Shown one piece after another: positions 42,004 to 47,604 of a stretch of 64,000 nt of DNA. Where the stretch lies: the NCBI RefSeq assembly GCF_002188635.1, contig NZ_NINX01000052.1, forward strand, positions 1 through 64,000, read 5' to 3'. Under the pieces are notes generated by a model, which saw nothing but the letters and a program-made list of their open reading frames with translations, was not told the DNA's origin and made no database searches. A program made the position numbers and the translations under genes. The DNA is from Pigmentiphaga sp. NML030171 (GTDB taxonomy: Bacteria; Pseudomonadota; Gammaproteobacteria; Burkholderiales; Burkholderiaceae_B). The stretch's first letter is position 1, and the number at the start of each line of letters is the position of its first letter.

Positions 42004-43926
42004 GTGTTCCCCGCGGGAGCGGGGATGAACCGCGACAGGAATGGGTTGACCTTGCTATGAAGGGGTGTTCCCCGCGGGAGCGGGGATGAACCGAATTCGC
42101 CCCTTTATTTTACCGGAAAAACAACGTGTTCCCCGCGGGAGCGGGGATGAACCGCGCAACTTCAGGCCTTCGAACTTCAGCCAGAGGTGTTCCCCGCGGG
42201 AGCGGGGATGAACCGATCAACACGGAGCCGATGACGATAGCGGAGCTGTGTTCCCCGCGGGAGCGGGGATGAACCGACCTCGCGCCTACCCTCGGCAACC
42301 ATCGTGGCGTGTTCCCCGCGGGAGCGGGGATGAACCGCCCGTCAATCGGGCAGTGAACGGAGCAGCCCGGTGTTCCCCGCGGGAGCGGGGATGAACCGCC
42401 AACACCGAAAACCTACGGGCCAACACCGAGGTGTTCCCCGCGGGAGCGGGGATGAACCGTCAGCGGAACTGGATCGACGCTTGCCATGGTGGTGTTCCCC
42501 GCGGGAGCGGGGATGAACCGGGTGGTATCGCTTTCACGATCGCGGACGGCGCGTGTTCCCCGCGGGAGCGGGGATGAACCGTATTATTTACGGTAATTGT
42601 TCCGGCCGCGAGAGGTGTTCCCCGCGGGAGCGGGGATGAACCGCCCTATCAACAGCTATCACGGCCGTGGCGGCTGTGTTCCCCGCGGGAGCGGGGATGA
42701 ACCGCCAAGCCGGCACGGCCTCGGGTGCCTTGCAGAGTGTTCCCCGCGGGAGCGGGGATGAACCGATGTCCACCCAGGTCATGGCATATTTCTGCAAGTG
42801 TTCCCCGCGGGAGCGGGGATGAACCGATAAACGAACAATATGAATGTAGTCATACCTTGTGTTCCCCGCGGGAGCGGGGATGAACCGTACGATCCGGTCG
42901 ACACAACCCGGGTCTGGCGGTGTTCCCCGCGGGAGCGGGGATGAACCGTGCTCTGCGTCTGGTATCGGCCGGACGGGAGCGTGTTCCCCGCGGGAGCGGG
43001 GATGAACCGCCCCATTCATTGCGAACATCAACCGGGGCCGGGTGTTCCCCGCGGGAGCGGGGATGAACCGATGTTTTCTATAGCCTCGACAAGGGATGGA
43101 CAGTGTTCCCCGCGGGAGCGGGGATGAACCGTTCGTCCCAATGGATTTTGTGGGCGACATCGTGTGTTCCCCGCGGGAGCGGGGATGAACCGCGATTTGC
43201 AGGGTGAGGCCCGGTTTACCGGGTAGTGTTCCCCGCGGGAGCGGGGATGAACCGTTCAGCCAGGACAACCACATGGCCGCGAGCCTGTGTTCCCCGCGGG
43301 AGCGGGGATGAACCGTGGTCAACCAGCTCAGGTCGTTTGACCATGCCGTGTTCCCCGCGGGAGCGGGGATGAACCGCTGAACGAAGGGCGGCTGCCGAAA
43401 CTGTCCACCGTGTTCCCCGCGGGAGCGGGGATGAACCGGCCTACCTGCTCGACATGCAGAGCGCCCGGGAGTGTTCCCCGCGGGAGCGGGGATGAACCGT
43501 CCAGGCCAAGGCCGCCCGCCAGGGATATGCGGTGTTCCCCGCGGGAGCGGGGATGAACCGCCGCCACGCTGTGCATGCTGGAACGCCTGCAGGTGTTCCC
43601 CGCGGGAGCGGGGATGAACCAAGAGAATTGCTGGCGTCGAGCGACAGGTCAAGGTGTTCCCCGCGGGAGCGGGGATGAACCGCTCACGGCGAGCTCTTCC
43701 GCGGCGTTCACCCAGTGTTCCCCGCGGGAGCGGGGATGAACCGGCAAGGTGGTGAGCATCACCATCACGGACCCCGTGTTCCCCGCGGGAGCGGGGATGA
43801 ACCGGCGCTGAATTCGACGCTGGGCAAGATGGCCGCGTGTTCCCCGCGGGAGCGGGGATGAACCGGAGTTCGGCGACGAGTTCGACCGCTCCGTACAGTG
43901 TTCCCCGCGGGAGCGGGGATGAATCG
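42004..43926 (+). CRISPR. Type I-E CRISPR array 1: 32 repeats, 31 spacers
   Basis: 29-nt repeats begin GTGTTCCCCGCGGGAGCG and end GGGGATGAACCG, containing the stem CCCCGC-GGGA-GCGGGG typical of subtype I-E. I located repeat starts from 42004 to 43898: 28 spacings are 61 nt (32-nt spacers) and three are 62 (33-nt spacers). Repeats are identical except number 27, whose last base is A, and the final one, which ends AATCG. The decayed right end and the leader on the left agree on orientation. The Cas6e-type hairpin loop is a GNRA tetraloop. No spacer duplicates were noticed. Confidence 0.97.
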
Positions 43927-44039
43927 GTCGGCTAGATGGGAAGCGTGGTGTAATCAAACACGCAACTGAGCGGCTTCGCGACACCAGAAGTGCCGCCAGC
44001 ATCTGCGAGCCAAACGAAGTGAGCGGCGTAACTGCCGAG

Positions 44040-44103
44040 CCGGCCTCCGTCTTGTCGGGAACTACAATATAAGTGCCCTCGCAATGAATCCTGGAGGACG
44101 ACC
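44040..44103 (+). promoter_or_regulatory. Probable promoter of mntA-hepT
   Basis: TTGTCG followed by TATAAG just upstream of the start, and a GGAGG ribosome site at 44092-44096. Spacing between the two boxes is somewhat short, so the exact hexamers are uncertain. Between array 1 and this point (43927-44040) nothing else is recognised. Confidence 0.45.
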
Positions 44104-44394
44104 ATGCGACCATCCGAAATTCTTGCATTGAAACGAAGCGCGGTACGCGAAGCGGCAGCTCGTTTCAAGACAGCGAATCCACGTGTCTTTGGTTCGGTTC
44201 TACACGGTACCGATCAGGACGGTAGCGATCTTGACATCTTGGTCGATGCTCTGCCCGGCGCTACATTGTTCGACCTCGGCGGCCTCCAGGACGAATTGGA
44301 AACGCTGCTTGGGGTGCATGTCGACTTGCTTACCCCGGGCGATTTGCCCATGAAATTTCGGGCCAAGGTTCTTGCGGAAGCCCAACCCGTATGA
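44104..44394 (+). CDS. mntA: MntA-type antitoxin (minimal nucleotidyltransferase)
   Basis: 96 residues. The catalytic pattern GSX10DXD is complete: Gly30-Ser31 and Asp42-x-Asp44 ('VFGSVLHG', 'SDLDILVD'). MntA enzymes neutralise their HEPN partner HepT by adding AMP units to a tyrosine. It is coupled to hepT by ATGA. Base composition is lower in GC than the flanking catabolic genes, fitting acquisition. The pair lies exactly where the interference genes of the CRISPR-Cas operon would be expected. Confidence 0.9.
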   Translation: MRPSEILALKRSAVREAAARFKTANPRVFGSVLHGTDQDGSDLDILVDALPGATLFDLGGLQDELETLLGVHVDLLTPGDLPMKFRAKVLAEAQPV

Positions 44395-45297: not shown

Positions 45298-45496
45298 TGT
45301 ATCGCGCCGTACACGGGAAATGATCTGGCAGCAGCTCGATTCAGGGTATGAAGACGGCAACATCGTGATGGCTTGGGCCAGCAACAGCGAATCTGGCTAT
45401 GACTTCCAGACGCTTGGGGCGAATCGCCGGGAACCGGACGACTACGATGGGTTGAGGCTGGTTGCGTTTCTTCTGCCAGAGGGGTCAACTCTTTAA
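45197..45496 (+). CDS. cas2: Type I-E Cas2
   Basis: 99 residues, full length for Cas2e: '[20 protein letters not shown]', '[23 protein letters not shown]', '[21 protein letters not shown]' and 'DGLRLVAFL'. Cas2e dimers are the structural core of the Cas1-Cas2 integrase. Here it is the only intact cas gene. Its stop lies 64 nt before array 2, the standard cas2-leader-array order. Confidence 0.95.
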
Positions 45497-45560
45497 CAGA
45501 AAAGTTGGTGGGTTTTTGGCATCCGATTTTTCCCTTTGAAAACAATCGGTTATGTTTGGA
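45488..45560 (+). promoter_or_regulatory. CRISPR leader 2
   Basis: Begins at the cas2 stop. It shares with leader 1 the ordered blocks CTTTAA, GTTGGTGGGTTT, CCGATTTTT, CTTTGAAAACAA and TTATGTTTGGA before the first repeat. It should contain the array promoter and adaptation signals. Confidence 0.75.
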
Positions 45561-47604
45561 CTGTTCCCCGCGTGAGCGGGGATGAACCGTGTCCCGTGAG
45601 CACATCGGCGTTCTGGGCATCCTGTTCCCCGCGTGAGCGGGGATGAACCGCTGCGCCTCTACGGCTGGGGCGGCGGGGCGGTCTGTTCCCCGCGTGAGCG
45701 GGGATGAACCGCGTGGGAATTATTGCTGCAACAGGTCTCGTTCCTGTTCCCCGCGTGAGCGGGGATGAACCGATCCCTGGCACAAAGCCCGCTCATAACC
45801 TCACCTGTTCCCCGCGTGAGCGGGGATGAACCGGCCGACTACAACGGCGACGGCGTGGCCGAATACTGTTCCCCGCGTGAGCGGGGATGAACCGTCGCCA
45901 TCCCCGATGATATCGTTGCGCCGCCCCTGTTCCCCGCGTGAGCGGGGATGAACCGCCCCCTGCGGCAACAGGGGGCGGGATACAACGCTGTTCCCCGCGT
46001 GAGCGGGGATGAACCGCCAAACTCGACGGACTATGAGGAAATCATGGCCTGTTCCCCGCGTGAGCGGGGATGAACCGCCGGACCAGTACGACACCGCCAT
46101 GCGCCAAGCCTGTTCCCCGCGTGAGCGGGGATGAACCGGTCTTTTCCGCAAATTCGACGTGCGCCGCGTCCTGTTCCCCGCGTGAGCGGGGATGAACCGC
46201 GCTTCTGTTCAGATGTCGGGGCGCGACCTTTCTGTTCCCCGCGTGAGCGGGGATGAACCGTCGGACAGCCATCGCTCGCAGATGGAAATGCCCTGTTCCC
46301 CGCGTGAGCGGGGATGAACCGGGCGGCGAGGACGATCTTTTGATCGATCCGAGCTGTTCCCCGCGTGAGCGGGGATGAACCGCTCCTCGAACGCTGCCCA
46401 GGGTTCATCCGGGACTGTTCCCCGCGTGAGCGGGGATGAACCGCGCCCCCTACCAAAATCAGACCTAGTACGATGCTGTTCCCCGCGTGAGCGGGGATGA
46501 ACCGCCCCACGGCAACGGGAGCCATGGCCGGGGCGTCTGTTCCCCGCGTGAGCGGGGATGAACCGTCCGCCTGCCCATCGAGTTCGTGAACCTGGCCCTG
46601 TTCCCCGCGTGAGCGGGGATGAACCGCGACCCGCTGTACCCTCGCCACGTTCCTGGCCCTGTTCCCCGCGTGAGCGGGGATGAACCGCACGCCGGCGCTT
46701 CCCTGCCATGAGATTCAACCTGTTCCCCGCGTGAGCGGGGATGAACCTAGCGCCGCGGCCGCGCTTGGACCCCACAAGGACTGTTCCCCGCGTGAGCGGG
46801 GATGAACCGGCACCCTGCATGTCGCGGAACAACTCGATCAGCTGTTCCCCGCGTGAGCGGGGATGAACCGCTACACCACGGCCGGCAGCGAAGGTTCCTA
46901 CGCTGTTCCCCGCGTGAGCGGGGATGAACCGCTGGCGCAGCAGGAGACCGAGAATGTCATCGACTGTTCCCCGCGTGAGCGGGGATGAACCGCCGCACCA
47001 CCAAGCGGCGCTGTTCCGTCGCTTCTGTTCCCCGCGTGAGCGGGGATGAACCGGTGGGATTCAGCGACAAACTCGTCACCCTGGCCTGTTCCCCGCGTGA
47101 GCGGGGATGAACCGGAAAACAAGAATTACTCCACGTTCGCCCTTGCGCTGTTCCCCGCGTGAGCGGGGATGAACCGTACAGGGGGATGTCGATGGTCATG
47201 GCTGCTCTCTGTTCCCCGCGTGAGCGGGGATGAACCGTCGAACTGGGCCTCCGGGTCGCGTTGCAGCACCTGTTCCCCGCGTGAGCGGGGATGAACCGCT
47301 GCTGATGCGGGCGAGGACGGGCGCGGGATCCTGTTCCCCGCGTGAGCGGGGATGAACCGTTCATCGGTCACAAAGAAGATGAACTCGAGCACTGTTCCCC
47401 GCGTGAGCGGGGATGAACCGCGGATGGTTATCGAACGAATCACATTGCACCTCTGTTCCCCGCGTGAGCGGGGATGAACCGACCATGGCGGGTTGACATG
47501 CGCCGCATTCGCACTGTTCCCCGCGTGAGCGGGGATGAACCGCATTGCGGATGCCGGTTGGTGCCGCAGGCGCCCCTGTTCCCCGCGTGAGCGGGGGCTG
47601 AACC
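45561..47604 (+). CRISPR. Type I-E CRISPR array 2: 34 repeats, 33 spacers
   Basis: 29-nt repeats start CTGTTCCCCGCGTGAGCG and end GGGGATGAACCG, differing from array 1 at the first base and in the loop (GTGA instead of GGGA). Starts run from 45561 to 47576. All spacings are 61 nt except two of 62. Repeat 20 ends in T instead of G. The last repeat is decayed (GGGGGCTGAACC). One spacer (45956-45987) contains its own 7-bp hairpin. No interference genes follow; the next gene is a PhoX-like protein on the other strand. Confidence 0.97.

Follow-up and report, generated by a model that had tools for sequence, protein, structure and literature searches.

Type I-E arrays of clustered regularly interspaced short palindromic repeats (CRISPR) that have no cas genes of their own have been described before. 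According to the extracts of the papers cited here, the CRISPR2 array of Escherichia coli is a cas-less I-E array, is thought to be served by the genes beside CRISPR1, and its use in trans has been proposed (PMC2886076). Deletions within I-E cas clusters are known in Salmonella and Shigella (PMC2886076). A review mentions the existence of orphan arrays and of incomplete systems, some of them functional (PMC8616872), and a survey that defined orphan arrays as arrays in genomes without any cas locus found a substantial number of them and cited spacer uptake in trans (PMC12814883). Here, we describe a locus in Pigmentiphaga sp. NML030171, within a 64-kb stretch of contig NZ_NINX01000052.1 (hereafter, the window), in which two I-E arrays flank what is left of a cas operon. 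We think it probable that one of the two I-E loci in this genome lost its cas genes by deletion and that its arrays now use the proteins of the other locus in trans.

The window locus resembles E. coli CRISPR2 in that I-E arrays stand without their own cas genes, share the repeat of the array that is served, and have a proposed use in trans (PMC2886076). It differs in having two arrays that flank a deleted operon, of which cas2 and a cas1 stub remain, and in that the serving operon is on another contig. For the degraded loci of Salmonella and Shigella, the extract of the source does not mention a second complete I-E operon (PMC2886076), whereas the genome studied here has one. We know of no paper on this locus in the open-access literature. 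It is another case of a known arrangement, with an unusually clear history, and leaves general knowledge of CRISPR unchanged. The strain offers a neat natural pairing of a stripped I-E locus with an intact one, and in a relative the operon of the stripped locus survives. This setting would allow one to measure the efficiency with which arrays with loop-variant repeats are served and updated from a distance.

Two arrays and the remains of a cas operon

The features of the locus are listed in Table 1. Both arrays run in the same direction, with a leader at the left of each, and have the properties of type I-E arrays (29-nt hairpin repeats, spacers of 32 or 33 nt where ~32 nt is usual, and a leader). 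Repeat identity within arrays was scored over the first 28 nt. By this measure, 31 of the 32 repeats of array 1 and 33 of the 34 repeats of array 2 are identical, the sole deviant being the leader-distal repeat in array 1 and the last repeat in array 2. The initial annotation, which had reported two large I-E arrays of these sizes with almost perfectly preserved repeats, was correct on both points. In the whole genome, the repeat pattern has 108 forward matches and 1 reverse match; the same pattern read backwards has none, so the matches are not due to chance. Leader 1 is 81.7–88.7 % and leader 2 is 83–89 % identical to leaders that lie beside cas operons.

Between the arrays are, in order, an MntA-like gene, a HepT-like gene, 218 nt of intergenic DNA, a cas1e stub and cas2e. 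When the eight I-E Cas proteins encoded in the same genome were compared with the 64-kb window (tblastn, E ≤0.01), only cas1 (convincing from ~44968) and cas2 (45194–45493) were found, and no other cas sequence was detected. Hence, as had been proposed from the initial reading, a C-terminal piece of Cas1 and an intact Cas2e are the only cas products left, and Cas3, Cse1, Cse2, Cas7, Cas5 and Cas6e are missing; the window does not hold the eight genes of a complete type I-E locus. In NCBIfam, the stub matches Cas1e positions 219–268 of 269, below the cut-off, as expected of a stub. Its reading frame runs through the usual stop into cas2. Everything before approximately residue 236 of Cas1 is gone and this includes the active-site residues, which we take to be E141, H208 and D221 in E. 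coli numbering. There are no N bases in the window.

Table 1. Features of the window locus in NZ_NINX01000052.1
Feature	Position	Strand	Basis or comparison
Leader of array 1	41930..42003	+	88.7 %/71 nt to syntenic-array leader in G007; 81.7 %/60 nt to C29 array A leader
CRISPR array 1: 32 repeats GTGTTCCCCGCGGGAGCGGGGATGAACCG, 31 spacers	42004..43926	+	Repeat as in array downstream of cas2 on C29
MntA-like nucleotidyltransferase (antitoxin-like)	44104..44394	+	PF01909 E 8.6e-9; NCBIfam MntA below cut-off; PADLOC PDC-S09 E 1.2e-26
HepT-like ribonuclease (toxin-like)	44391..44744	+	PF01934 E 5.2e-28; NCBIfam HepT below cut-off; no PADLOC match
Remnant of region upstream of cas3	44745..44962	+	87.2 %/218 nt to G007 hepT-cas3 interval; ends ~80 nt before the relative's cas3 start
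Deletion junction	44963..44967	.	~8428 bases of syntenic G007 locus absent
cas1e C-terminal stub, ~residues 236–309 of 311	44968..45189	+	tblastn, NCBIfam, comparison with relatives
cas2e, intact	45194..45496	+	PF09707 113.1 bits; TIGR01873 above cut-off; 91 % amino acid identity to C29 cas2e
Leader of array 2	45497..45560	+	89.4 %/66 nt to leader downstream of cas2 on C29 and in G008
CRISPR array 2: 34 repeats CTGTTCCCCGCGTGAGCGGGGATGAACCG, 33 spacers	45561..47604	+	

C29 is another contig of the same genome. Codes such as G003, G007 and G018 stand for genomes in the comparisons.

Comparison with a syntenic locus

Eleven genomes of the genus, including that of the window, were searched; Cas6e was found in five and Cse1 in five. 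Comparison of the locus in relatives, which the initial annotation had recommended, identified a syntenic locus in G007 (locus 1) that keeps the full cas operon. Locus 1 consists of ABC (ATP-binding cassette) transporter genes, a 44-repeat array, an MntA/HepT pair, cas3 to cas2, and a 34-repeat array. The left flank (96.7 % identical), the MntA/HepT pair (96.6 % identical) and the order of the arrays are as in the window. The right flank is partly different, with only a phoX-like gene fragment there, and the two loci differ further in the full operon of the relative and in the loop of the repeat in the first array.

Aligned with G007 locus 1, the window is continuous to 44962 and resumes at 44966–44968, and 8428 bases are absent. 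The absent block extends from ~80 nt upstream of cas3 to approximately codon 235 of cas1. Judged against this relative, the window locus is shown to have lost its cas genes in one deletion of ~8.4 kb. No long shared stretch was seen in the bases around the two ends of the deletion, and the relative, which is 13 % diverged, is too distant for short homology there to be judged.

G007 has a second cas operon (locus 2, on its contig C21; L052), in which cse1 is broken by an internal loss and the match to cas3 stops near the contig end. The repeat pattern has 22 forward matches in G007, and a further set of repeats is on the other strand, outside the loci compared.

A complete operon on a second contig

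The strain was isolated from human clinical material and its genome assembly comprises 57 contigs and 5,862,145 bases (PMC5543643). Four CRISPR sequences were reported for each of the two strains in the genome paper (PMC5543643), which fits the two window arrays and two further arrays on contig C29.

A search of the genome for Cas2e found it in two places, the window and C29. On C29 (stretch L003), cas3, cse1, cse2, cas7, cas5, cas6e, cas1 and cas2 follow one another in this order, all with open reading frames, and all eight proteins were recognised by Pfam or NCBIfam, making this a complete I-E locus. Cas6e and Cse1 were each found once in the genome. C29 Cas1 aligns over 300 residues with a solved Cas1, C29 Cas6e has the histidine that aligns to position 20 of a solved CasE, and C29 Cas3 aligns with a solved Cas3 with its HD, GKT and DEVH stretches in place. 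The solved relatives are presumably the E. coli proteins, and we take the aligned residues to be catalytic.

Array A of C29, upstream of the operon, has 24 repeats (GTGTTCCCCGCGAGAGC...), all 24 identical, and array B, downstream, has 18, of which 17 are identical. The repeat of array B is the array 1 repeat, letter for letter; relative to it, the array 2 repeat is changed at base 1 and in the hairpin loop and nowhere else. The genome has three types of repeat, which differ in the loop, plus base 1 in array 2, and all fold with the same 7-bp stem. From these sequences, a Cas6e that reads the stem would be expected to cut all of them.

The suggestion in the initial annotation that the arrays are served by Cas proteins from elsewhere is supported by the sequence data: the search of the genome for other I-E cas genes, cas6e included, that it had advised found a whole operon, and one of the arrays there shares its repeat with array 1. 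The annotation had also named an operon, complete and just beyond the window, as the finding that would refute it; a complete operon does exist, but it is on another contig, so the objection holds in spirit only.

On the reading that we prefer, the window locus is the remnant of a second type I-E CRISPR-Cas locus that was formerly complete. The deletion of ~8.4 kb took the DNA from just upstream of cas3 to around codon 235 of cas1, leaving cas2, both leaders and both arrays. The arrays would be transcribed from their own leaders, the transcripts cut in the repeat hairpin by the C29 Cas6e, and the resulting CRISPR RNAs loaded into the Cascade made by the C29 operon. C29 Cas1-Cas2 is probably still able to add spacers at the window leaders. 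We infer expression, processing, interference and acquisition in trans from the sequence relationships set out above.

Recombination in the right half of the locus

The window locus is a recombination mosaic. Alignment columns were scored if C29 and G008 had one base in common and G007 locus 1 and G006 had another. There are 65 such columns; the window matches neither group in 5, leaving 60 that can be scored. The first 17 of the 60 follow G007/G006, and the next 43 divide into 37 that follow C29/G008 and 6 that follow G007/G006. None of 20000 shuffles was as extreme. The breakpoint is at 45117–45123, inside the cas1 stub. In cas2, silent divergence from C29 is 0.32, as against 1.40 from the syntenic relative. 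Hence, cas2 and leader 2 derive from the lineage to which the other operon belongs, or were swapped with it. The supports in a tree of the cas1 end and cas2 were 48–65, which is accounted for by the mosaic, and we claim no single tree.

The sharp switch of affinity within the stub would also be expected if the gap itself had arisen by recombination with a C29-type locus that brought in the right half (cas1 end, cas2, leader 2 and perhaps array 2) as the cas genes were lost. However, over its first 150 nt the stub sides with the syntenic operon at every scorable column (17/17; 2 more columns match neither), so the deletion junction and the recombination breakpoint are at different places, and we consider this origin of the gap rather unlikely. 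It bears on origin alone and does not conflict with service in trans.

Spacer targets

Spacers of both window arrays and, of the two C29 arrays, array A only were compared with 50,697 phage records. Three imperfect matches were retained, namely array 1 spacer 30 to Achromobacter phage Mano (3 mismatches), array 1 spacer 23 to Pseudomonas phage PPpW-3 (4 mismatches) and array 2 spacer 22 to Burkholderia phage Mica (5 mismatches). Shuffled controls for three phage targets, with five shuffles each, had minima of 11–13 mismatches. A match to phage Apex, with 11 mismatches, was dropped. Records from E. coli, Salmonella and Saccharomonospora were taken, from the listing alone, to be matches to repeats, as they cover long parts of arrays or several repeats. 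Array A of C29 has one listed match, of 34 nt at 94 %, to Bordetella phage vB_BbrP_BB8. Four of five seed scans of viral contigs returned nothing and the fifth matched a contig as long as the Mano genome. The comparison with plasmids was made for array 1 and its list was swamped by whole arrays of other bacteria.

In 200 genomes of the family, with two candidates scored per genome, the only perfect full-length match outside arrays was to a contig of the same genome, C18 (discussed below). The next best was array 1 spacer 3 in G018, with 4 mismatches, and the remaining matches listed have at least 5 mismatches over the whole spacer or are arrays.

Among the 377 spacers of the loci compared, there are two pairs between the window and another genome: array 1 spacer 28 resembles a G007 spacer (93 % over 29 nt) and array 2 spacer 23 shares 25 nt exactly with a G003 spacer. 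As the surrounding repeats are not the same, either common descent or independent capture could account for these pairs.

Extracts of two papers (PMC2886076, PMC8616872) give a precedent for orphan arrays with anti-cas spacers, in the I-F arrays of E. coli, and such spacers in the window arrays might have driven the loss of the cas genes. However, 63 of the 64 window spacers have no cas-gene match in the 11 sequences compared (E ≤0.01). Array 2 spacer 12 matches 18 nt near the G007 cas3 start, but over the whole spacer it has 13 mismatches in 32, which is the level of the shuffles (11–13). We regard an anti-cas role as extremely improbable, and the possibility in the initial annotation that the arrays are used otherwise gains no support from these comparisons.

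In G007 locus 1, spacer 25 of the array downstream of cas2 (L050) is similar to the MntA gene within the same locus (20 nt with 1 mismatch; 32 nt at 84 %). This likeness could be due to chance among 377 spacers.

Are the window arrays still in use?

The repeats of the window arrays (31/32 and 33/34 identical) are as clean as those of the C29 arrays (24/24 and 17/18). In G003, for which the searches returned no Cas6e and no Cse1, the array occupying this site is reduced to 9 repeats, of which 3 are identical, or 6 if the loop is ignored.

An alternative is that the locus is a decaying relic, no longer served, with arrays that are clean merely because the deletion is recent. There are signs of wear: the stub frame is already damaged, with loss of the usual stop, and on the cas2 branch there are ~9 amino-acid-changing to 13.5 silent changes, compared with 18:65 for three other pairs (summed by hand and not independent; Fisher p=0.11, only suggestive). 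These signs decide neither for nor against a recent loss, the first possibility raised in the initial annotation. Other loci of the genus have decayed, cse1 being broken in G007 locus 2 and arrays without cas genes occurring in G003 and beside the phoX-like gene of G008. However, the cell has an intact operon with the same repeat and the leaders have been kept, and we consider a relic unlikely.

Several observations weigh against service in trans. G003 is a single comparator for decay without Cas6e and Cse1. G008 has a complete operon, yet in its array 1.4 kb upstream of cas3 only 2 of 7 repeats are identical, and 7 of 11 are identical in its cas-less array beside the phoX-like gene. Clean repeats are therefore weak evidence of service, and they would also be seen in unserved arrays soon after a deletion. 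The flanks of the three imperfect phage matches disagree, and no protospacer adjacent motif (PAM) is claimed from them. Leader-end seeds, one per array, gave no sign of recent acquisition, with no match in viral contigs.

The remaining point is array 1 spacer 27 (43621–43653), which is identical in 33/33 bases to C18 (L149:1502–1534) in what looks like an IS3-type transposase region, with open frames judged by eye. The repeat before this spacer is followed by A, and the other repeats by G. The I-E PAM expected from E. coli is AAG, and here AAG is at the start of the stored sequence and not next to it, which looks like a capture displaced by two bases. A spacer of this kind is not expected to cut; the match to C18 is therefore compatible with an active system and is no proof of one. 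With these points taken into account, loss of the cas genes from one locus and service of its arrays by the C29 operon is the reading that we retain.

In the loci of the genus, many arrays have the same two loop bases in all of their repeats, and these bases vary from array to array. In the arrays that contain more than one type (G008, G003 and G001), the types mostly occur in runs, which fits new repeats being copied from the first repeat.

Toxin-antitoxin genes near the arrays

The MntA/HepT-like pair, which was missed in the initial annotation, lies after the first array in both the window and G007 locus 1. The two genes are adjacent, as in type VII HepT/MntA pairs, and exceed the Pfam cut-offs, whereas the NCBIfam equivalog cut-off of 60 bits is not reached (31.1 and 38.6 bits). 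Homologues of this pair were found in G004 and G005, both of which lack these repeats, so the pair is not tied to CRISPR.

Further pairs are found on C29. Before array A, there is an HTH-MNT (HTH, helix-turn-helix) gene (L003 1913–2545) with a partner (2610–2960), which are the PADLOC candidates PDC-M05A and PDC-M05B; the PDC-M05B-type partner on C29 has no Pfam match. In G008 and G006, genes related to the HTH-MNT gene are flanked by an array on either side. A ribbon-helix-helix/ParE pair is located between array A and cas3. A ParE-like/HTH pair (L003:15766–16566) has the last, degenerate repeat of array B on one side and a lone, nearly perfect repeat on the other, an arrangement that looks like an insertion into the tail of the array.

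Toxin-antitoxin pairs at array ends in this genus might make arrays hard to lose, such that arrays outlive their operons, cas genes become interchangeable and are shared among the loci of one immune memory, and the orphan Cas2e is still lent to the Cas1 of the other operon. We think this very doubtful. No report joining HEPN-MNT, CRISPR and type I-E was found in the open-access literature, and papers retrieved for HepT, MntA and CRISPR were, judged by their titles, not on the subject.

Upstream of the HTH-MNT gene on C29, at L003:1736–1828, there is a lone leader with one degenerate repeat, which is probably the remains of a further array.

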